From positions 1-35,487 of the forward strand of contig JAUIIQ010000009.1 in the NCBI GenBank assembly GCA_030431585.1: a stretch of 35,487 nt of DNA, given 5' to 3'. Source of the stretch: Gammaproteobacteria bacterium. Its GTDB lineage: Bacteria; Pseudomonadota; Gammaproteobacteria; Pseudomonadales; Halieaceae. Below, piece by piece: positions 18,795 through 35,487 of this stretch; position 1 is the first letter of the stretch, and every line of letters starts with the position of its first letter. The position numbers and the translations under genes are program-made. The notes beneath the pieces were generated by a model that saw only the letters and a program-made list of their open reading frames with translations, had not been told where the DNA came from and searched no databases.

Positions 18795-18870
18795 GGGTGA
18801 TTAGCTCAGCTGGGAGAGCATCTGCCTTACAAGCAGAGGGTCGGCGGTTCGATCCCGTCATCACCCACCA
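18795..18870 (+). tRNA. tRNA-Val(UAC)
   Basis: 76 bases with a complete cloverleaf. Acceptor GGGTGAT pairs with ATCACCC and encoded CCA follows. The D-arm is TAGCTCAGCTGGGAGAGCA. The anticodon stem is TCTGC/GCAGA with loop CTTACAA, so the DNA anticodon is TAC (valine). The T-arm includes GGTTCGATCCC. It is transcribed from the consensus promoter just upstream together with tRNA-Asp. Confidence 0.97.
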
Positions 18871-18895
18871 CTTCCGAGATATACATCCTACCGTT

Positions 18896-18972
18896 GGACC
18901 GGTAGTTCAGTTGGTTAGAATGCCGGCCTGTCACGCCGGAGGTCGCGGGTTCGAGTCCCGTCCGGTCCGCCA
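18896..18972 (+). tRNA. tRNA-Asp(GUC)
   Basis: 77 bases. Acceptor GGACCGG pairs with CCGGTCC, followed by G and encoded CCA. The anticodon stem is CCGGC/GCCGG with loop CTGTCAC, so the anticodon is GTC (aspartate). The T-arm carries GGGTTCGAGTCCC. It lies 25 bases after tRNA-Val and is clearly in the same transcript. Confidence 0.97.
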
Positions 18973-24428: not shown

Positions 24429-24506
24429 CTGAAAGCAGTGTTATTCGATTTTGGCGGGGTGTTTATCGACTCACCTGGTCTGTACCGGAGCCAGTTATTG
24501 CTTTAG
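24429..24506 (+). pseudogene. truncated 5' fragment of a HAD-superfamily hydrolase
   Basis: A 25-codon frame begins at a CTG placed 7 bases after a good Shine-Dalgarno (AAGGGA, 24416-24421). It reads LKAVLFDFGGVFIDSP, the first 16 residues of a typical HAD phosphatase with the catalytic DFGGV-x-x-D motif I. It then leaves the family sequence and stops. The stop overlaps the stop codon of the convergent MDR gene, so the remaining 200 or so codons were lost at this junction. The start codon is CTG instead of ATG/GTG/TTG, consistent with decay. It probably once formed an operon with the prenyltransferase. Confidence 0.6.
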
Positions 24507-25603
24507 TCCGCAGCGATAATGATTTTGCCGCGAGCGCGGCCGGTTTCTGAATAGGCTATTGCCTGCGCAGTCTCCGCCAGAGCAAAGCGCCGATCGATCT
24601 GCGAAGTCATTTTTCCTTCCGACATCAGTTTGGCTAAATTGGTGAGGTCATCACCGTCAAGCTGCGCCATTATGGAGGTCACTTCCTGCTCCATCAAAGG
24701 CGCTGTCAGCAGTGCTTCGATCATCCCCCGAAAGGGCCCCACCCAATCCCCCGCGGGGCCTCCTACCTGCACCAGGCGGCCAGTCGGTTTCATGACCTTG
24801 CTGTTGTCCAGCAACGAGTGGTTACCCACCATATCGAGAATCAGGTCGTAGCGCTCATCGCTCTCGGTATAATTCTCCTTCTTGTAGTCGAAAACATGAT
24901 CGGCTCCGAGGCCCAGCACCATCTCGACATTTCTGGTGCTGTTCACGCCGTGCACCTCGGCGCCCAAGGACTTGGCTATTTGCACCGCGTAGGTGCCCAC
25001 GCCGCCCGAAGAACCGTTGATGAGGACTTTCTGCCCGGCCTGTAACTGGCCGCTGTCACGCAGGGCCTGCAGTGCAGTAATTGCTGCCACGGGCACGGCG
25101 GCGGCCTGCTCGAAGCTGACGTTATCCGGCACGAGAGCAATGGAGCCCGTTTCCCCGCGCACAAGGTATTCGGCGAAAGCACCATTGGCACCGCCAAATA
25201 CCCGGTCGCCGGGTTTAAAGCGGGTGACCTTTTCTCCGATGGCTTGTACCTCGCCGGCAAAATCCCTGCCCATGGACGCATCCCCGGGGGCGCCGATGCC
25301 CGTCATCAGTCGCATCACGAATGGGGAGCCGCGCATAAAGTGCCAGTCCAGCGGGTTAACACCGGCGGCATGCACCTTTACCAGCACTTCGTCTTCCTTC
25401 GGCACTGGCATTGGCACATCAACATATGCCAACACTTCTGGTCCACCGTAGCAGCCATAGGTAACTGCTTTCATAGTGGGCCCGGATACGGCCTCGGCAG
25501 CGGGGGGGCAGTCGGCTGTGTAGCCGATCAAAAGTGCCAGCGTGGAGGTAAGCAGAAAGAACACGGCAAGGATGCCGCTGGCAATTTTGTACCGAAGCTT
25601 CAT
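24503..25603 (-). CDS. MDR-family NAD(P)-dependent oxidoreductase with N-terminal membrane anchor
   Basis: A 366-residue medium-chain reductase of the zinc-free quinone oxidoreductase type. The catalytic part begins at about residue 44 with MKAVTYGCYGGPEVLAYVDV. AAGVNPLDWHFMRG and GRDFAGEVQAIGEKVTRFKPGDRVFG follow (described by their ends, about 80-140), then the NADPH motif NGSSGGVGTYAVQIAKSLGA near residue 192. No zinc-ligand cysteines are present. Oddly, the first 43 residues form a hydrophobic segment (ILAVFFLLTSTLALLIGY) plus a short linker, so the enzyme should be membrane-anchored. The ATG at 25603 starts the segment; an in-frame TTG at 25630 lies further out. Its 3' end abuts a broken HAD gene. 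The substrate is unknown, and alkenal or quinone reduction is typical. Confidence 0.88.
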   Translation of the reverse strand: MKLRYKIASGILAVFFLLTSTLALLIGYTADCPPAAEAVSGPTMKAVTYGCYGGPEVLAYVDVPMPVPKEDEVLVKVHAAGVNPLDWHFMRGSPFVMRLMTGIGAPGDASMGRDFAGEVQAIGEKVTRFKPGDRVFGGANGAFAEYLVRGETGSIALVPDNVSFEQAAAVPVAAITALQALRDSGQLQAGQKVLINGSSGGVGTYAVQIAKSLGAEVHGVNSTRNVEMVLGLGADHVFDYKKENYTESDERYDLILDMVGNHSLLDNSKVMKPTGRLVQVGGPAGDWVGPFRGMIEALLTAPLMEQEVTSIMAQLDGDDLTNLAKLMSEGKMTSQIDRRFALAETAQAIAYSETGRARGKIIIAAD

Positions 25604-26011
25604 GAACTGTTTTCCCGAGTGCGAGCGCAATAAAAGTAATGATGATAGATGGAGTCGGCGCCCTGGTCACCTCTGGAATGGTTCACCAGCCTGGTGCCGA
25701 CCCACTGCCGCTGATTCTGGCCGGATAGACCTGCTTGGCCGATAATGTCAAATACTGGCCGTTAGGGGCATAACATTCCACGCTGAGCCTCGTTACTCTG
25801 GGTTCTTCTGAGTCTGGTGGTGGCGCAGCTTCGCAGATTGACACATAGTGGGGTCACGGATACTTGACAGGTCTGGCCCTGCCTCCAGTGGAGGATCGGT
25901 GGCTGCGGAATCGGCCGGAAACTCTGGTAATGCGGAAACCTGGCCAAGGGGTGCTTAAAATAGCGCACCAGTTTTAGAATTTGTTTATAACATCTCGCTC
26001 AGGAGAAAAGT
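25604..26011. other. intergenic region before the monooxygenase, no gene recognised
   Basis: About 400 bases between divergent genes. Short frames on both strands show no recognisable protein. A possible leader feature is GGTGC...GCACC around 25950-25970. TATAAC at about 25987 could be a -10 for the monooxygenase. CAGGAG lies upstream of the ATG at 26012. Confidence 0.45.
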
Positions 26012-27544
26012 ATGGGTACACCAGAATCTGTAGCATCGCACTCAAGCGACAATCATTTCGATGTAGTCATTGTCGGCGCTGGCATCTCCGGTATCGGTTC
26101 GGCCTATCACCTGCAAAAAAATTGTGCGGACAAGCACTTTACTATTCTGGAGATGAAAGACACCTTTGGTGGCACCTGGGAAACCCACAAGTACCCCGGA
26201 GTGCGCTCTGATTCGGACCTGTACACGTTTGGCTATGAGTTCAAGCCCTGGGTGGGGCACCCTATCGCGACAGGGGAAGAGATACTCAAGTACATGGGCG
26301 AGGTTATCGAGGAAAACGACCTGGCGCGCCATATACGTTATGGCCATCGCATTACCGCCTGTCGCTGGTCCAGTGCCGAAAACCTCTGGCACCTCGACGT
26401 CACTCGCCTTGCTGATGGGGAGCAACTGCAATTTACCTGTGGTTTCCTGTGGATGTGCCAGGGCTACTACGATCATGAAAATCCCTATATTCCCGACTGG
26501 CCGGGTATGGACCAGTATCAAGGGCAGCTGGTTCATGCACAGCAATGGGATCCGGAGACGGACTACGCAGGCAAGCGTGTACTGGTTATTGGTTCAGGGG
26601 CGACGGCTGCGACCGTGATACCGGAGTTCGCAAAAACCGCGAAGCACGTGACCATGCTGCAACGCTCTCCCACCTATTTTTACTGTGATGAAAACCGCAA
26701 TGAGCTGGCGGATCGCCTGCGTCTGATCGGCATAGATGAGGCAACGGTTCATCGTATCGTGCGAGCTGACATCATTTACCAGCAGTTTGAGATGACGCAC
26801 CTGTCAGAATCTGATCCCGAGGCGATGATTGAAATGTTGCGAGACCAGATCCGCAGTTATGTGGGCGACGACTTCGAGTTCGAGCCCCACTTCGTACCCA
26901 GGTATCGACCCTGGCAACAGAGGCTCGCGTTCTGTCCGCAAGCCGATATATTCAAAGCCGCAGTCGATGGCAAATTGACCGTGGTAACGGATACTCTGGA
27001 GACCTTTACCGAAAACGGGGTGCGCACCTCTTCCGGAGAAGAAATAGAAGCGGACATTATCGTTGCCGCCACGGGTTTCAATTTGCTGGTCATGGGCGGC
27101 ATCCCTTTCGAGGTCGATGGCGAGCCGGTGAACTGGCACGACACAGTCAATTACCGCGGTATGATGTTTACCGGTGTGCCCAACATGGTGTGGGTGTTTG
27201 GCTATTTCCGCGCCAGCTGGACCCTGCGTGTTGACATGCTGGGTGAGCTGGTATGCCGGCTGTTAAAGAATATGGACGAGCGTGGCGCAAAGCGCGTGGA
27301 AGTATCCTTGCGCGACGAAGACCGGGATATGGAAATTTTGCCCTGGATCAGTGAAGATGAGTTCAATCCCAATTACCTGATGCGCGACCTGGATCAGCTT
27401 CCCTCTCGAGGCAGTAAGCCCGAGTGGCGGCACAATCAGGATTATTGGGTGGAGCGTCATCAGATCCCTGCAACCGATCTGAATGCTGCTGAGTTTGTCT
27501 ATGATGGCCAGCAAGGCGCGGGTGTTCAGAGTAATTCTGGCTGA
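26012..27544 (+). CDS. Baeyer-Villiger-type flavin monooxygenase
   Basis: A 510-residue FAD/NADPH class B monooxygenase that inserts oxygen next to a ketone or hydroxylates a soft nucleophile. VVIVGAGISGIGSAYHL (about 18-34) binds FAD. FGGTWETHKYPGVRSD (about 52-67) is the region typical of Baeyer-Villiger enzymes. YQGQLVHAQQWD at about 169-180 matches the fingerprint F/Y-x-G-x3-H-x3-W-P/D. VLVIGSGATAATVIPE (about 187-202) binds NADPH, and IIVAATGFN closes the flavin domain. The length is near the usual 500-540. The start has CAGGAG upstream. It runs in the same direction as the PQQ dehydrogenase 94 bases on, and faces the MDR gene. The substrate is unknown. Confidence 0.93.
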   Translation: MGTPESVASHSSDNHFDVVIVGAGISGIGSAYHLQKNCADKHFTILEMKDTFGGTWETHKYPGVRSDSDLYTFGYEFKPWVGHPIATGEEILKYMGEVIEENDLARHIRYGHRITACRWSSAENLWHLDVTRLADGEQLQFTCGFLWMCQGYYDHENPYIPDWPGMDQYQGQLVHAQQWDPETDYAGKRVLVIGSGATAATVIPEFAKTAKHVTMLQRSPTYFYCDENRNELADRLRLIGIDEATVHRIVRADIIYQQFEMTHLSESDPEAMIEMLRDQIRSYVGDDFEFEPHFVPRYRPWQQRLAFCPQADIFKAAVDGKLTVVTDTLETFTENGVRTSSGEEIEADIIVAATGFNLLVMGGIPFEVDGEPVNWHDTVNYRGMMFTGVPNMVWVFGYFRASWTLRVDMLGELVCRLLKNMDERGAKRVEVSLRDEDRDMEILPWISEDEFNPNYLMRDLDQLPSRGSKPEWRHNQDYWVERHQIPATDLNAAEFVYDGQQGAGVQSNSG

Positions 27545-27638
27545 GCCCGGTGTCTGCGAATATCGGGACAGGCGGTTCCTCTGCTCAACCCATACGAAAA
27601 CAATCAATATAAATGTCGTTCACATGAGAGCTTACAAC

Positions 27639-29813
27639 ATGTTGAAAATTCATTGGCGCAGCGTAGTGCTGCTTGCACTGATGCCCTTGTTTGTCGCCTG
27701 CCAGCAAAAGGCAGCTGAAGAATCCACCCAGGGCGCCGGCGAACAGCCCGCGGCCGTCGCAGCAGCCGCAGCTGTAGCCGTCGCCGCTGTGGACAGTGAG
27801 CGCCTGGTGGCTGCCGACAGCGAGCCCGGTAACTGGATGTCCTATGGCCGCACCTACAGCGAACAACGCTACAGTAGACTCAAGCAGGTGAGCGACACCA
27901 GCGTCGAGAACCTCGGCCTGGCCTGGCACTTCGACCTGGATACCGAACGCGGTATCGAGGCCACCTCCATCGTGGTCGACGGGGTGATGTACCTGACTTC
28001 CGCCTGGAGTAAGGTTTACGCGCTGGACGCTGCCAGCGGCGCACCGTTGTGGAGTTACGATCCCGGCGTCAAGAAGGACGTCACCCGCCACGCCTGTTGC
28101 GATGCCGTCAATCGGGGCGTGGCCGTTTGGGAGGGGCAGGTGTTTGTGGGCGTGCTCGACGGCCGTCTGGTGGCGCTGGATGCCGCCACTGGCGCAGTCA
28201 ACTGGGAAGTGGTCACGGTGGATCAGAGCAAGCCTTACACCATCACTGGTGCGCCCAGGGTGGTTAAGGGCAAGGTACTGATTGGCAACGGTGGCGCCGA
28301 GTTTGGCGTACGCGGTTACCTCAGCGCCTATGACGCAAAAAGTGGAGCAATGGTGTGGCGCTTCTATACCGTTCCCGGCAACCCGGAGCTGGGCTTCGAA
28401 AATGCCGCGATGGAAATGGCGGCGAAGACCTGGAACGGCAAGTGGTGGGAACTCGGTGGAGGAGGGGGTACCGTCTGGGACGCCATGGCCTATGACCCCG
28501 AGCTGGATCTGCTTTATTTCGGTGTCGGCAACGGTACGCCCTGGAACCGGGAAATTCGCTCACCCGGGGGTGGCGACAACCTGTTCCTGTCCTCGATCGT
28601 CGCGGTGCGTCCCGACACTGGCGAGTACGTCTGGCACTACCAGACCACGCCCGGGGAAACCTGGGATTACACCGCGACCCAACACATTATCCTGGCCGAT
28701 ATAGAGCTGGAGGGGAAAACCCGCAAGGTGTTAATGCAGGCACCCAAGAACGGTTTTTTCTACCTTATCGACCGCACCGATGGCACCCTGCTCAGCGCCA
28801 ACAACTATATCGATATCACCTGGGCAACCCATGTGGATATAGCAACCGGCCGACCGGTTGAGGTCGAGGGCGCGCGCTATACGGAGGGGCCGTTTACGGT
28901 GTACCCCTCCTACCTGGGTGGGCACAACTGGCATCCCATGTCTTACAACCCCGATACCGGGCTGGTGTATATCCCGGTGCTGGATTTCCCCGCCGCCTAT
29001 GGCCAGCCGGAAGAGTTTATCTACCGTCCCGGCATCAGCAATACCGGCACCGACGGCGTTATTGGCAGCCTGCCCGACGCGCAGGCCGAGCGGGATGCCA
29101 TACGCCCCCTCATGAAGGGACGGCTGCTGGCCTGGGACCCGGTAACGCAGCGCGAGGCCTGGCGGGTGGAACACGACGGCCCCTGGAACGGCGGGACGCT
29201 GACCACTGCCGGCAACCTCGTGTTCCAGGGTACGGCGGACGGCAAGTTCGTAGCCTACCGTGCTGACAACGGCGAGCGGCTGTGGGACTTCGCCACCCAG
29301 ACGGGCGTGGTTGCTCCGCCGATCACCTATGCCATTGACGGTGAACAGTATATCTCTGTCAACGTCGGCTGGGGTGGCGCCTATGCACTGGTGTTCGGGG
29401 AGTTCGTCACGCCCGAGAGCCTGCCGAACGTCAGCCGGACGCTGACCTTCAAGCTGGGCGCCGATGGCAAACTGCCGGAGCTGGATTGGCAGCCGCGGGT
29501 CGTATTCAACCCCCCTGCGCAAACCGGCAGCGAGGAAAGCATCCGCGAAGGCTTCGCCCTGTACCAGGATATCTGCATGGGCTGCCACGGGCTCAACGCC
29601 GTCTCGGGCCTGTTGATACCGGACCTGCGAGGCTCGGCTTACCTGTACGACCCCGCCGGCTGGAACGCGGTGGTTCTGGGCGGGGCACTGAAGGCAAACG
29701 GGATGGCGGCGTTCGACCAGTGGCTGGACGAGGCACAGGCAGCGGCGATCCGGGATTACATCATCCAGCAGGCCTGGCGTGGCCAGAACCTGCAGGCGCC
29801 GAAAGGGAAATAA
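27639..29813 (+). CDS. PQQ-dependent quinohemoprotein alcohol dehydrogenase, lipoprotein-like
   Basis: A 724-residue periplasmic type II quinohemoprotein that oxidises alcohols with PQQ and passes electrons to its own haem. The N-terminus has a signal peptide ending LFVAC with Cys21, so it may be a lipoprotein. An Ala-rich linker (about 32-50) follows. The eight-bladed propeller spans about 60-600 with tryptophan-docking motifs such as ALDAASGAPLW. Vicinal Cys153-Cys154 in RHACCDAVNRG is the PQQ-contacting disulfide, and the Asp of GETWDYTATQ is the likely base. CMGCH (646-650) binds haem c, with Met689 a probable axial ligand. The ATG at 27639 follows GAGAG; an ATG at 27624 is an alternative. 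PQQ synthesis genes are not in the window. Confidence 0.94.
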   Translation: MLKIHWRSVVLLALMPLFVACQQKAAEESTQGAGEQPAAVAAAAAVAVAAVDSERLVAADSEPGNWMSYGRTYSEQRYSRLKQVSDTSVENLGLAWHFDLDTERGIEATSIVVDGVMYLTSAWSKVYALDAASGAPLWSYDPGVKKDVTRHACCDAVNRGVAVWEGQVFVGVLDGRLVALDAATGAVNWEVVTVDQSKPYTITGAPRVVKGKVLIGNGGAEFGVRGYLSAYDAKSGAMVWRFYTVPGNPELGFENAAMEMAAKTWNGKWWELGGGGGTVWDAMAYDPELDLLYFGVGNGTPWNREIRSPGGGDNLFLSSIVAVRPDTGEYVWHYQTTPGETWDYTATQHIILADIELEGKTRKVLMQAPKNGFFYLIDRTDGTLLSANNYIDITWATHVDIATGRPVEVEGARYTEGPFTVYPSYLGGHNWHPMSYNPDTGLVYIPVLDFPAAYGQPEEFIYRPGISNTGTDGVIGSLPDAQAERDAIRPLMKGRLLAWDPVTQREAWRVEHDGPWNGGTLTTAGNLVFQGTADGKFVAYRADNGERLWDFATQTGVVAPPITYAIDGEQYISVNVGWGGAYALVFGEFVTPESLPNVSRTLTFKLGADGKLPELDWQPRVVFNPPAQTGSEESIREGFALYQDICMGCHGLNAVSGLLIPDLRGSAYLYDPAGWNAVVLGGALKANGMAAFDQWLDEAQAAAIRDYIIQQAWRGQNLQAPKGK

Positions 29814-29834: not shown

Positions 29835-29967
29835 ATGAAGCAATACCAGCTCACCACCCCCGGAGGACTTGCCGACCTGGCCGTGATAGGCCCGGAGGTC
29901 CCATAGCCAGCGGCAGGGTAGGTACCGGTGCACGGGCAGTGAGTGCTGCTGTCCAAAATGCAGAAGG
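29835..29967 (+). pseudogene. broken 5' fragment of an MDR (quinone reductase-like) gene
   Basis: An ATG with a G-rich ribosome-binding site (GGGTGGGA, 5 bases before) starts a frame reading MKQYQLTTPGGLADLAVIG. This is a typical first strand of a zinc-free MDR oxidoreductase. A stop at 29904-29906 interrupts it. In another frame the next stretch reads ARAVSAAV, which fits the following MDR segment (V-x-V-R-A-x-S-L-N), so a frameshift and later substitutions are likely. The sequence then runs into the xth stop, and the rest of the gene is missing. It is not the same gene as the intact MDR at 24503-25603. Confidence 0.5.
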
Positions 29968-30732
29968 CTAGCGAAATTCCACGCTGACCGGGCAGTGATC
30001 GGAACCAATGATGTCGTTGTGGATCGCCGCGCCGTCGATACGCGATGTGACCAGGTCTGACGTTCCCAGAAAATAGTCAATGCGCCAGCCCACGTTCTTC
30101 GCCCGTGCCCCGGCGCGGTAGCTCCACCAACTGTACTTCACCGTGTCGGGATAAAAATGCCTGAAGGTATCGATGAAGCCTGCGGCGATAATATTGTCCA
30201 TGCCGTCTATCTCTTTCTGGGTGAAACCGGCGCTCTTGTTGTAGTTGGGTTTGGGCCGGGCAAGATCGATGTCCCGGTGGGCGACGTTGAAGTCCCCGCA
30301 CATCAATACCGGTTTGTGTTGTTCCAGATTGCGGACGAAGGCGAGAAAGTCACGGTCCCAGGTTTCCCGGTAGGGCAGGCGCACCAGCGCATTTCCTGAG
30401 TTCGGGGTATAGACGGTGATCAGGTAATGGTCAGCGAACTCCGCGGTGAGTACCCTGCCTTCCTGGTCGTGCTCCTCAATGCCGATATCGGCTCGTACCG
30501 CCAATGGCCGCTCCCGCGCCAGAATCGCCACCCCGGAATAGCCCTTGCGCACAGCCGAGTTGCTGTAGACATGGTAGCCGTCTACACCTTCCAGTGCGGC
30601 CACCACCTGGTCGTCCTGCGCCTTGGTCTCCTGCAGGCAGACAATGTCGCTCTGCAGCGCATGCAGGGAGTCGGCGAAACCTTTTTTCATCACGGCGCGC
30701 AGACCGTTGACGTTCCAGGAAGTGATTCTCAT
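29968..30732 (-). CDS. xth: exodeoxyribonuclease III
   Basis: A 254-residue Mg-dependent AP endonuclease/3'-5' exonuclease of the ExoIII/ExoA family, used in base excision repair. SWNVNGLRA (5-13) and CLQETKAQ (about 32-39) hold the metal-binding Asn and Glu. VYTPNSG has the catalytic Tyr, and [12 protein letters not shown] (about 146-157) has the Asp/Asn pair. [20 protein letters not shown] supports the DNA-binding loop, and [10 protein letters not shown] ends with the catalytic Asp-His. The length is normal, and the motifs are closer to ExoA than to E. coli XthA (268). It is convergent with the MDR fragment. No strong ribosome-binding site is seen. Confidence 0.96.
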
Positions 30733-31227
30733 TTTGGCTGGGCGCCTTCATCAGTTGGTGAGGTGCGTACTTTAGCGCATAGGCGGGGCGTTTATAAATG
30801 TCTCATCCATGAACTGGGCGCTGCAGGAACAGGGAGGCTACCTCAGCTGGGACAAGTCGCAGAGCTTTTGTCAATGAATTGTCGCCCTGGACGCCATGGA
30901 TCAGCGCGGCTATCACTATCAACCCGAGGCTCCGAGCGTGACCTGCATTCATCGCATAATAGGGATCAATCTACTCGCGTGTTTTCTGGAGTTTGGCTCG
31001 GGGTGCCAACAGGCGAAGCATCGGTAAACAGGGTACAGCCTCGCACTGGATACGCCTCAAGTGTCAATTCCACGACAGTTCCCGCGGATCCGCCAGGCTA
31101 TCCTTGTCAGTTAGAGAGGAGGCATCGGCCTGCGATGGGTTACCCGGTGCAAGCGACCACCCGATAAACCAAAACCCGTTGACCAGAACGGTGACACGGT
31201 TTTAACAGTAAATCAGGAGTCCAGCAG
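30733..31227. other. intergenic region, no gene recognised
   Basis: About 495 bases between xth and the DUF1330 gene. Plus-strand frames stay open over part of it but show no family-like sequence. One short frame from 30809 (MNWALQEQGGYLSWDKSQ) starts and stops within 23 codons and is unrecognised. A weak promoter candidate, TTGACC (31179-31184) with TTTAAC or TTAACA 16-17 bases on, lies before the DUF1330 gene. Confidence 0.5.
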
Positions 31228-31639: not shown

Positions 31640-32779
31640 TTACTGAAACGGAAAACGCACGATCTCTTCTGTCAAGGCAGAGTCGTAGTAAAACGTCAGC
31701 GTTTTACCTGTCGGTTTTACGTGTGTGGTTGTTTTAAGCAAGGTCGGGTTACCCATCGCTGCCCGATCCACTTCGTCGAAAGCAAGCACGCCGTCCAGAC
31801 GTGTATAAACCTGGTTGATTTTGCGGCGCTGCACCTCATTGCGGAAGGCTTCTGCAGTGTCTCGCGATAACTTCCACTTGAGAGCCGGTATTGTTACCTC
31901 ACCGCTGGCGTTCTCGTAGAACTGTATGTCGACGTCAGATGTTGACACGTTCTGCAAACCACCTGGTAGCGCCTTCATGCGCGCGCCGCCCACGTTCCGG
32001 AACAAATACACACCTTCCTTGAAGTCGTAGCGTGGGATGGAAATCTGCCCGACTACTGTAACCTCACGCGAAATACTATTTGCGTAGGCCAGCAGTTTGT
32101 CGAAATATTTGTCGAGAAAGACCTGATAGGCTGCGCGAAAACGGAACTCGTTGTAGCCTGCGCCCCATACCGGGGTAAGCCCGGCGATATCAAACGGGCG
32201 GGCACCGTGGAAACGGTCCAGCGGGCAGGACGCTTCGGCGACACAAAACACTTCACGGTATGGCCCATCCGCCAGCGCGCCTCGCGCCGCCCTTTCCACC
32301 AACGGTGCCCAGGGGCGCATGAACGCATTGATTTTGTAAGGCCGCTTACCCGACTCATAGACTTTTTGCATGTTCTCTTTGGTGAAGATGTCGCTGTTCT
32401 CGGCGAGCGTCTGCATATCCATCCATTGCTGATGACCGATGCGTTGCACATGCATGCCGCGCATGCGGCGGTTTCGCTCAGTGATGCCCAACTGATTAAC
32501 AATGACCGGGTCCATCAAGTTTTGCTGAATGCCCATGCGGTATCGTCCGTCGATGCCGGTGACCGGGAAGCTGCGCATGGTGGCGCTGTCAGCTGGCACA
32601 ATGGTCATCATGCTGCCTTCGGGCAAATACGGCTCTACATTGGATGAACTCACGCGAGCGTTCTGGGCAAACACGGTAGTGGTTACGAGAGACAAGGCTG
32701 CCACTGCAGCAAGCGCTCCACTGCACAGGCAGCTGGCACGTTTAATTGGCAAGAAATGGGTTCGTGTGAGCGATTCCAT
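31640..32779 (-). CDS. exported protein of unknown function, paralogue of the upstream gene
   Basis: A 379-residue secreted protein that I do not recognise. A Sec signal peptide with a long basic n-region ends at VFAQNA, about residue 39. The mature part is mixed alpha/beta. FCVAEASC holds a cysteine pair 7 residues apart that could form a periplasmic disulfide. LLAYANSISREVTVV (about 234-248) and RYDFKEGVYLF (about 255-265) recur in modified form in the next gene upstream. The C-terminus ends FYYDSALTEEIVRF. GAGGA lies 7 bases before the ATG at 32779. It follows its paralogue by about 90 bases on the same strand, so co-transcription is likely. No transmembrane segment other than the signal is seen. 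Confidence 0.78.
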   Translation of the reverse strand: MESLTRTHFLPIKRASCLCSGALAAVAALSLVTTTVFAQNARVSSSNVEPYLPEGSMMTIVPADSATMRSFPVTGIDGRYRMGIQQNLMDPVIVNQLGITERNRRMRGMHVQRIGHQQWMDMQTLAENSDIFTKENMQKVYESGKRPYKINAFMRPWAPLVERAARGALADGPYREVFCVAEASCPLDRFHGARPFDIAGLTPVWGAGYNEFRFRAAYQVFLDKYFDKLLAYANSISREVTVVGQISIPRYDFKEGVYLFRNVGGARMKALPGGLQNVSTSDVDIQFYENASGEVTIPALKWKLSRDTAEAFRNEVQRRKINQVYTRLDGVLAFDEVDRAAMGNPTLLKTTTHVKPTGKTLTFYYDSALTEEIVRFPFQ

Positions 32780-32872
32780 GGGATTTTCCTCAATTACTTA
32801 TGCTTTTGCCAGGTTGCCTACGAGCTGGAGAATGACGCTCGCTACCAAACACTCTGGCTCAGAGTAAACCGA

Positions 32873-34009
32873 TCACGGTGTCAAGGTGACGGTTCCCAGG
32901 GGTTTTGTCAGTGCCAGATCCCTATAAAATACAACGTCCGGGCTTTGCAGTTCATAGAGCATGAAATACCGGCTCTGCCGCAGGCTGGGTTCAGCCCACG
33001 CCATGTTGTACAACCTGGCTTGCAAGGTGAAGTACAGCAGGTCGTTGCCGCGCTCTTCTTTCAAGTCATTGACAAGCTTCTCGGCGTCGCCAGGTGACAT
33101 TTTAAGTACTACCCGTTCCGTTGTTAGACCCTCGCCGGGAATTTTCACGGCTGCACCAGGGCGCTGGTGATAAAAGTAGCCCACGTCGTTACCCAGGCGG
33201 CCGCCGGCGGAGTGCTGCGGCATGGCAAGGTCAAACGGAAAACCACCCAGCGAAAAGTCGTACTCTGTCAGCAGTACCCGGTCGACCAGTACAACTTCCG
33301 GCGACAAGGATTTTGACCACGCAAGCAAGGGCTGTAGATCCTTTGCTATATACGTCTCTATTGCTTCACGCACGGCGAACTCATCTTTATTGCGCTTCCA
33401 TTTTTTTGCCGCCGCACCGGTGGGGGAAACGCCGAAACGCATTACCTGACGATACTTTGGATCCCAGCACGAAGCATTGTCAGTACAGAAATAATCCTTG
33501 AAGATCGGCGTCGTCGCGACGCTATAAGCTATAGCTGATGCATAGCCAAGCGGTTGAAAGTACTGCAGCGCAGGTTCTTTTCTCACCGCATCCGGGTCCG
33601 GGTCCAACATCCATTCTTCTGTATAGAAGGGTTCGCCCCACTGAAATGCAAGCAAGCCCAAATACAACTCTTCTTCATCCAGCAGGCGCTTGGCGACCTG
33701 CAACTTGGCCTGGCGCCGATCACCTGGTTGCGGTCGAGTAGCCGAGTCGTAGTCGTCGAGCAAGCCCACACGTACTTTTCCCTGGTGGGTAGCAACGGTC
33801 AGGTCACGATAGCGATCGCTGTTCGGGGACTGGACAGTCGCCAGTGGCCCAACATCAAAAGAGACACTGGAATAGTGGTCGGCAAGATTGAAGTATTCGG
33901 AGAAATTCGCCGCTGTCGTATCGTCAGCGCCGGCAGCCCCAGAAACCGCCATTAAAAGGCCGGCGCACAACCCCGGAACTGACTGCACAAAGCGCTTATT
34001 GGTGAACAA
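32873..34009 (-). CDS. exported protein of unknown function, paralogue of the downstream gene
   Basis: A 378-residue secreted protein that I do not recognise. A signal peptide (LCAGLLMAVSGAAGADD) is cut near residue 29. FCTDNASC, LLAWSKSLSPEVVLV and EYDFSLGGFPF occur in the same order as in the neighbouring gene, with similar spacing and a shared ending (FYRDLALT). The middle part has LLDEEELYLGLLAFQWGEPFY. I place the start at a TTG (34009) because GAGGAG is 8 bases before it; an in-frame TTG at 34033 would add 8 residues. It heads the two-gene transcript. The region before it is short and AT-rich and leads to the divergent ArsR gene. Confidence 0.75.
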   Translation of the reverse strand: MFTNKRFVQSVPGLCAGLLMAVSGAAGADDTTAANFSEYFNLADHYSSVSFDVGPLATVQSPNSDRYRDLTVATHQGKVRVGLLDDYDSATRPQPGDRRQAKLQVAKRLLDEEELYLGLLAFQWGEPFYTEEWMLDPDPDAVRKEPALQYFQPLGYASAIAYSVATTPIFKDYFCTDNASCWDPKYRQVMRFGVSPTGAAAKKWKRNKDEFAVREAIETYIAKDLQPLLAWSKSLSPEVVLVDRVLLTEYDFSLGGFPFDLAMPQHSAGGRLGNDVGYFYHQRPGAAVKIPGEGLTTERVVLKMSPGDAEKLVNDLKEERGNDLLYFTLQARLYNMAWAEPSLRQSRYFMLYELQSPDVVFYRDLALTKPLGTVTLTP

Positions 34010-34023: not shown

Positions 34024-34231
34024 TCCCAGACAACTCAACGCATTCAGCATAGTTGGCGAATCGGAGCCTAGCAATGGTATACCCAGGTTAATTTCTACCA
34101 TGGGTGGAGACTGTTCATGAAGTCATGCAAGCACCATGCGGGGTACTTAGGCGATGGCAGCTACTTACCAGCCAACAATGAACGTTTGACGTAAAAGATT
34201 CGCCGCTTTGTAACTTGAATAATACGGAAAA

Positions 34232-34262
34232 CCATATATATTAAATAACGCATATATTAACC
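34232..34262. promoter_or_regulatory. AT-rich repeat, candidate ArsR operator
   Basis: Two copies of a CATATAT(AT)TAA motif (34233-34244 and 34251-34260) lie 7 bases apart, just upstream of the arsR GTG. Each core ATATAT is self-complementary, so the pair is also an imperfect palindrome. ArsR/SmtB repressors bind AT-rich dyads at this position. Autoregulation is inferred. Confidence 0.45.
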
Positions 34263-34282: not shown

Positions 34283-34627
34283 GTGAATCCTGTCCAGTTT
34301 TACAAATGCCTGGCCGATGAAACCCGCCTGCGCTGTGTGTTGCTGATCGAGCATGAACAGGAACTGTGCGTCTGTGAGTTGACCGAAGCCATCGATGAAA
34401 TCCAGCCCAAGGTATCGCGTCACCTCGCGCAGTTGCGTAAGTGCGGCCTGTTGGTGGATCGACGCCAGGGTCAGTGGGTGTTCTACCGGGTGAGTCCCGA
34501 ACTGCCTGAATGGGCAAGAACTGTTCTGACAGACACGCTAGTGAGCAATCAACGTTTTGTGGCCGACAATCTGAAGCGCCTGGCGCGGATGGGAGACCGG
34601 CCCGCCCGTAACGCGGCCTGTTGTTGA
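34283..34627 (+). CDS. arsR: ArsR/SmtB family arsenic-responsive repressor
   Basis: A 114-residue winged-helix metalloregulator. FYKCLADETRLRCVLLI (6-22) is the first helix pair. ELCVCELTEA (27-36) carries the CVC arsenite-binding cysteines (Cys29, Cys31) of classical ArsR. QPKVSRHLAQLRKCGLLVDRRQGQWVFYRV (given by its ends, about 42-72) covers the recognition helix and the wing. The C-terminus adds a CC pair (113-114) that may also bind metal. The start is a GTG at 34283 with GGGG about 8 bases upstream. It leaves DNA when As(III) binds. It is followed 18 bases later by a GAPDH of the ArsJ-associated kind. Confidence 0.94.
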   Translation: MNPVQFYKCLADETRLRCVLLIEHEQELCVCELTEAIDEIQPKVSRHLAQLRKCGLLVDRRQGQWVFYRVSPELPEWARTVLTDTLVSNQRFVADNLKRLARMGDRPARNAACC

Positions 34628-34645
34628 GATGAAAAGGAGTGAGGC

Positions 34646-35487
34646 ATGACGGTAAGAGTGGGAGTTAACGGCTTTGGTCGTATGGGGCGCCTGATTTTGC
34701 GGGCTGCCTGGGGTGCTGACGATATTGAGTTCGTGCAGATTAACGACCCTGCAGGGGATGCCGCGACACTGGCGCACTTGCTCACGTTTGATTCGGTCCA
34801 CGGAAAATGGGCCCTGGATGCACGGAGTGAGGGCAGTGAGATTGTGATCGATGGCTGCCGACTTGCCTGCACCGGCAACACCAGTATTGCCGATACCGAC
34901 TGGTCTGGCTGTGATGTGGTGATCGAGGCGTCGGGAAAGTTCAAGAAACAGGCTGTGCTGCAAGACTATCTCGCACAGGGCGTAAAACGCGTCGTGGTCA
35001 CAGCACCTGTTAAAGAAGAGGGCGTGTTGGACGTGGTGATGGGCGTGAACCACCACCTCTACGATCCTGCCATGCATGGTATTGTCAGCGCAGCCTCGTG
35101 CACCACCAATTGTCTGGCGCCGGTGGTGAAAGTGATACACGAGGGCCTCGGAATAAAACACGGATCGATGACCACCGTGCACAGTATTACCAATACGCAG
35201 ACGATTCTCGATGCGCCGCACAAAGACCTGCGACGGGCCCGAGCCTGTGGCATGAGTCTGATCCCCACGACGACGGGGTCGGCCACGGCGATTACCCATA
35301 TTTTTCCGGAGCTGCAGGGCAAGTTGAATGGGCATGCCATCCGTGTTCCGTTGGCGAATGCGTCGCTGACGGATTGCGTGTTCGAGGTTGAGCGTGAAAC
35401 CAGCGTTGAGGAAGTGAATGCTCTGCTCAGGGCGGCGTCGGAGTCTGGCCTTAAGGGGATACTGGGCTACGAGGAGAGGCCCCTGGT
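34646..35487 (+). CDS. ArsJ-associated glyceraldehyde-3-phosphate dehydrogenase, 3' cut by window edge
   Basis: The first 280 residues of a [23 protein letters not shown] (5-22) binds [18 protein letters not shown] replaces the usual glycolytic text and matches the ars-operon GAPDH group. [12 protein letters not shown] has the nucleophile Cys152, and [14 protein letters not shown] has the catalytic His. In characterised systems this enzyme uses arsenate to make 1-arseno-3-phosphoglycerate, which ArsJ exports and which then breaks down outside the cell. AAAGGAG lies 9 bases before the ATG. The frame has no stop before the window ends, and arsJ is expected immediately to the right. The arsR context makes a housekeeping glycolytic role unlikely. 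Confidence 0.93.

Follow-up and report, generated by a model that had tools for sequence, protein, structure and literature searches.

The two adjacent minus-strand genes at 31640-34009 of the window, by which we mean the whole stretch of 35,487 nucleotides that was analysed, encode a pair of paralogous proteins that arose by an ancient and not a recent duplication. The reading we prefer, tentatively and with a little less than even confidence, is that the products of this old duplication are soluble and exported, belong to a single unrecognised family and have linked roles, and that they plausibly associate as a 1:1 complex of a basic and an acidic partner. Both open reading frames were confirmed at the positions given in an earlier note on this DNA, 31640-32779 and 32873-34009 on the minus strand, with 379 and 378 codons' worth of protein. 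The features to which we refer are the following.

32873..34009, minus strand: P0002, the upstream gene of the pair, TTG start, 378 aa
31640..32779, minus strand: P0001, the downstream gene of the pair, ATG start, 379 aa
32780..32872, minus strand: intergenic gap between P0002 and P0001, 93 nt, with a Shine-Dalgarno-like TGAGGAAAA before the ATG of P0001
34010..34282, no strand assigned: intergenic region separating the pair from arsR
33234..33328, minus strand: gap-free conserved block of P0002, LLAWSKSLSPEV...EYDFSLGGFPF
32001..32095, minus strand: gap-free conserved block of P0001, LLAYANSISREV...RYDFKEGVYLF

For P0002, the listing of open reading frames also holds a longer version of 386 aa with a TTG start at 34033; the start at 34009 is favoured because it is preceded by a Shine-Dalgarno-like AGGAGACAGG. 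A single transcript carrying P0002 and P0001 is plausible, given a 93-nt gap in which neither a promoter-like nor a terminator-like site was found on the minus strand. The one promoter-like site of the gap is on the plus strand.

That the two proteins are distant paralogues, as the earlier note had proposed, is borne out by several comparisons. BLASTP aligns P0001 and P0002 co-linearly over nearly their whole length (390 columns, 22% identity, E=2e-12), and when each was used as the query against the entire genome of the window, it recovered its partner (E=3.2e-9 and 7.5e-9). Aligned by the Smith-Waterman method, the mature parts, for which the cleavage sites were picked by eye, reach a score of 129 against a mean of 34.5 (sd 5.1) and a maximum of 67 among 2000 shuffles, which puts them 18.5 sd above the shuffles. 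The homology is co-linear across the mature proteins, strong in the middle and weak at either end taken alone. Most of the signal comes from the middle part, whose score of 112 (z=20) was reached by 0 of 1000 shuffles. The score of the N-terminal part alone was reached by 47 of 1000 shuffles (z=2.1) and that of the C-terminal part by 12 of 1000 (z=2.8); on these figures the two ends would seem barely more alike than shuffled sequences. The common ending described previously is indeed present in both proteins, but it is weakly significant alone, and is believable mainly because it is co-linear with the rest of the alignment. The age of the duplication can be read from the codons. With Met and Trp left out, the same codon is used at 25 of the 83 aligned identical residues, compared with 30.3 expected from codon usage; synonymous sites are therefore saturated and the duplication is old, as had been supposed.

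The middle part has the same layout in both proteins, an FCx3ASC motif followed by the gap-free block of the form LLA...SxSxEV...YDFxxG. All of the motif pairs quoted in the earlier note are present, but the spacing of the cysteines is FC-x3-ASC (C-x5-C) and not FC-x4-ASC. Mature P0001 (341 aa, pI 9.2) and mature P0002 (350 aa, pI 5.1) contain exactly two cysteines each, both within FCx3ASC, a placement which suggests that these cysteines may form one disulphide common to both proteins; the pattern holds for both full-length proteins, while the fragmentary third copy on contig C30, described below, does not cover the motif. The export signals claimed for both proteins are supported as far as they can be judged by eye: each N-terminus is signal-peptide-like, with cleavage at about VFA-QN in P0001 and at about AGA-DD in P0002, so that both would probably be exported by the Sec route. 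The lipobox motif of lipoproteins is [LVI][ASTVI][GAS]C, and none was seen by eye where the two signal regions end.

There is, in our estimate, an even chance that P0001 and P0002 belong, as far-diverged members, to a known superfamily lying beyond the reach of profiles built from a two-row alignment, a reading that is compatible with the others considered here. Single-sequence searches are weak, and there are two full-length sequences alone to search with; moreover, at 22% identity the family itself is old, and relatives are to be expected. The searches speak against it as far as they go. Neither protein reached the curated cut-off of any Pfam-A or NCBIfam family. The whole proteins had no match in Pfam at E<=1 or at E<=10, and 8 overlapping pieces searched at E<=10 gave PF11649 only (E=0.097-0.17, 28 residues, below its cut-off). 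Nor was there a match among the PDB sequences at E<=10, in NCBIfam for whole proteins and pieces, or in the PADLOC models of anti-phage defence, and the PHROGs gave only non-significant matches (E=0.15-0.27). With no significant match in any of these collections, the family is as unrecognised as it was before. The structure prediction that the earlier note had called for was carried out for each protein and gave no usable fold: the AlphaFold models, built on 3-row alignments, have a mean pLDDT of 33.0 and 33.6. One lead, DUF4852, was dropped, since it had no Pfam match and nothing came up for it in a literature search. A search of paper listings for orphan periplasmic paralogues likewise turned up nothing relevant.

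What the two proteins do together, if anything, is the part of the preferred reading where the evidence has to be weighed most carefully. According to this reading, a duplication long ago would have left two genes of one family side by side on the same strand, and both products would be exported and soluble, which in a Gram-negative host would place them in the periplasm; a single disulphide, in the FCx3ASC motif common to both, would stabilise each of them. With less confidence, basic P0001 and acidic P0002 may bind each other 1:1 and may act as a periplasmic unit for binding or assembly, which is proposed because both copies stayed adjacent through a very old divergence. The heterodimer is a guess resting on charge and retention: the pI values and the adjacency would fit it without proving it. 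Opposite pI values arise by chance in many protein pairs, and this counts against a complex; the linkage of a P0001 type with a P0002 type was seen once in everything searched. A comparable layout is offered by VtrA/VtrC, reported as a periplasmic heterodimer from one operon (PMC9214523). As there, two exported partners appear to be encoded side by side; unlike VtrA/VtrC, our pair has no visible membrane anchor or cytoplasmic regulator domain, and the two systems are likened by gene layout, not by sequence.

That the two proteins took on independent functions after the duplication has almost the same probability as a linked pair. Tandem duplicates often diverge into separate functions, and P0001 and P0002 may have been split in this way into two exported activities, for example two binding specificities, that form no complex, their adjacency being a relic of the duplication. 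This would agree with strong conservation of the middle part only, both ends barely exceeding shuffles, and with the presence of a P0001-like copy elsewhere in the assembly, but it does not sit easily with genes that stayed adjacent despite the saturation of their synonymous sites. The further copy is a fragment (G000:C30:3-140, locus L003) of 47 C-terminal residues, 48% identical to residues 333-378 of P0001. Contig C30, of 4237 bases and from the same assembly, opens with the last 47 codons of this P0001-like gene, which is cut by the contig edge. A survey of co-occurrence found neither gene in any other genome of the sets searched, and the cut by the edge of C30 would hide a partner of the third copy. 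The fragment adjoins AstE/AspA-, AbgT- and YcgR-like genes. A second AstE homologue, of the type of the genus, is on contig C320, and the AstE of C30 is about 71% identical to it and to the AstE of the congener G004 alike; C30 may come from a second locus in the same organism, or from a relative whose contig was mis-binned. At positions 1-1749 of C30 (locus L044), the cut third copy stands beside this second, divergent AstE/AspA-type gene.

The distribution seen for the family is narrow. No copy of the pair was detectable in any of the 7 congeners searched, and no relative was accepted in the 139 other genomes among the 140 of the family. Counting the window's own genome, and in sets which overlap, those of the order, class and phylum being draws from larger groups and those of the family and genus comprising every genome in the collection, P0001 and P0002 were each found in 1 of 58 genomes of the relatives set and P0001 in 1 of 390 of the order set (E<=0.001 throughout), and a two-row profile matched 2 of 369 genomes of the class set and 2 of 140 of the family set (both E<=0.01), and 1 of 398 of the phylum set (E<=0.001). 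The same profile matched 0 of 78 and 0 of 48 genomes in two other classes (E<=0.01). Outside the own genome, the matches are G735 (E=0.006) and G835 (E=0.0046) only. The former is antisense to a plus-strand ORF (1370-1972 of locus L006) that we take to be YbeY-like; the latter contains two internal stops and is antisense to an ORF of locus L008 which is presumably DinG-like. A profile search of 3585 frames from 79 records returned G735 at E=0.0004 and G835 at 0.011, together with L034 at 0.29 and L060 at 0.70. As a judgement call, G735 and G835 were rejected as chance on the strength of their loci, being the best picks of 369 and 140 genomes.

Mobile and viral sequences gave a similar picture. 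No relative of P0001 or P0002 was found among plasmids, and none in the phages or IMG/VR. In viral contigs, 12 stretches picked with P0001, 15 with P0002 and 152 with the pair alignment included none that could be confirmed, and the motif pattern picked 0 stretches. In the genome-contig collection, where the scans detect close or motif-identical relatives only and distant ones may exist, 80 stretches carried exact 8-residue patterns of P0001, none of them confirmed. A further 22 stretches fitted the motif pattern and were all rejected as chance with the two-row profile, which listed 19 of them at E<=100 (best E=0.17) and 3 not at all. The collections scanned may lack entries from the genome of the window itself and from close ones.

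Set against named protein families, the two proteins have no significant match, and besides each other their only relative is the 47-aa fragment of C30. Lineage-restricted (orphan) families with exported proteins duplicated in tandem are a general kind, which the pair resembles in being adjacent and on the same strand, in its export-signal-like starts, in having no recognised domain and in its patchy presence. Unlike such duplicates, however, it diverged (to 22% identity) far earlier than one would gather from its narrow distribution, and relatives should therefore exist outside the collections searched. The identity and the saturated synonymous sites mean that the family must be old; an old family with no relative outside the assembly in these collections would be found mostly in unsampled lineages or evolve too fast for detection by these searches, and if neither holds, P0001 and P0002 are an ordinary uncharacterised pair. 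The evidence takes us as far as an orphan pair in an unrecognised family and no further.

The surroundings of the pair bear on how it may have come to its present place. The ADH-type gene (24504-25654) and xthA (29940-30804) have 91-92% DNA identity to G004, where they are 53 nt apart; in the window, FMO-type and PQQ-type dehydrogenase genes lie between them. Aligning pieces of the locus on C320 are only 68-76% identical to G004, and in the stretches of G001 and G006 that were compared, xthA alone matched, at 78%. Past 30804 the window's DNA has no match in the 18-kb stretch of G004 around xthA, and arsR and GAPDH of G004 are on a contig other than that of xthA, which supports the view that the pair probably lies in a variable genomic segment. 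This segment was presumably gained. In repeat, tRNA and Rfam searches, nothing close to the pair was recognised as the border of a mobile element; the window has tRNAs at 18795-18972 only. The G+C content around the pair is lower (0.53-0.54); it was not used as evidence because other stretches of the window share it. As for the PQQ-type dehydrogenase (27483-29813), it has a C-terminal cytochrome c domain, and the listed ORF begins before the FMO-type ORF ahead of it has ended, which makes a true start further in probable. We regard as unlikely a bolder account in which the pair would form a new fold family and an obligate acidic/basic periplasmic heterodimer, having been duplicated anciently in unsampled lineages and moved into this genus with the variable segment.

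The divergent arsenic genes that the earlier note placed beside the pair are there, with arsR (HTH_5, E=1.3e-11) and GAPDH confirmed by Pfam; the contig ends within GAPDH. The divergent arrangement, together with the known arsenate efflux route that GAPDH forms with the permease ArsJ (PMC5930303), might suggest that the pair belongs functionally to this arsenic operon, its exported products dealing with arsenicals or the stress these cause, and the pair sharing a regulatory region with arsR. We consider this very improbable. G004 and G005 both carry the GAPDH, sharing 81% and 80% identity with that of the window, but the pair is not detectable in either; on the 4.2-kb contig C30, the third copy is accompanied by no ars gene; and a pair of cysteines that probably form a disulphide would make a poor arsenic site. 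By eye, the DNA that window and G004 clearly share upstream of arsR is an AT-rich stretch at about 34213-34258, limited to the arsR-proximal part of the intergenic region, so that there is no support for ArsR controlling the pair as well, though it may do so. No evidence linking the pair with arsenic was found beyond its position, and the neighbourhood looks incidental. At 34283-35487 of the window, arsR is followed directly by GAPDH, near to the GAPDH of the G004 arsR locus. At that locus, the one examined for arsR beside GAPDH, a gene for an SBF-family transporter stands between the two and an MFS gene comes after.

That the two frames are chance openings on the minus strand and no genes has next to no probability left, for although the plus strand holds two antisense ORFs (146 and 133 aa) and GC by codon position is not decisive, a conserved protein alignment at E=2e-12 without synonymous similarity refutes it and means that both frames are coding, and both also have ribosome-binding-like sites and signal-peptide-like starts.

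A last, minor observation concerns a short piece of the window on the plus strand. The 23 nt at 31124-31146 are 87% identical to coding positions 1013-1035 of P0001 (E=0.003 in a local blastn comparison) and are read in the same frame, with the translation HRPAMGYP against DRAAMGNP in P0001; this is possibly a scrap of another copy, or chance.
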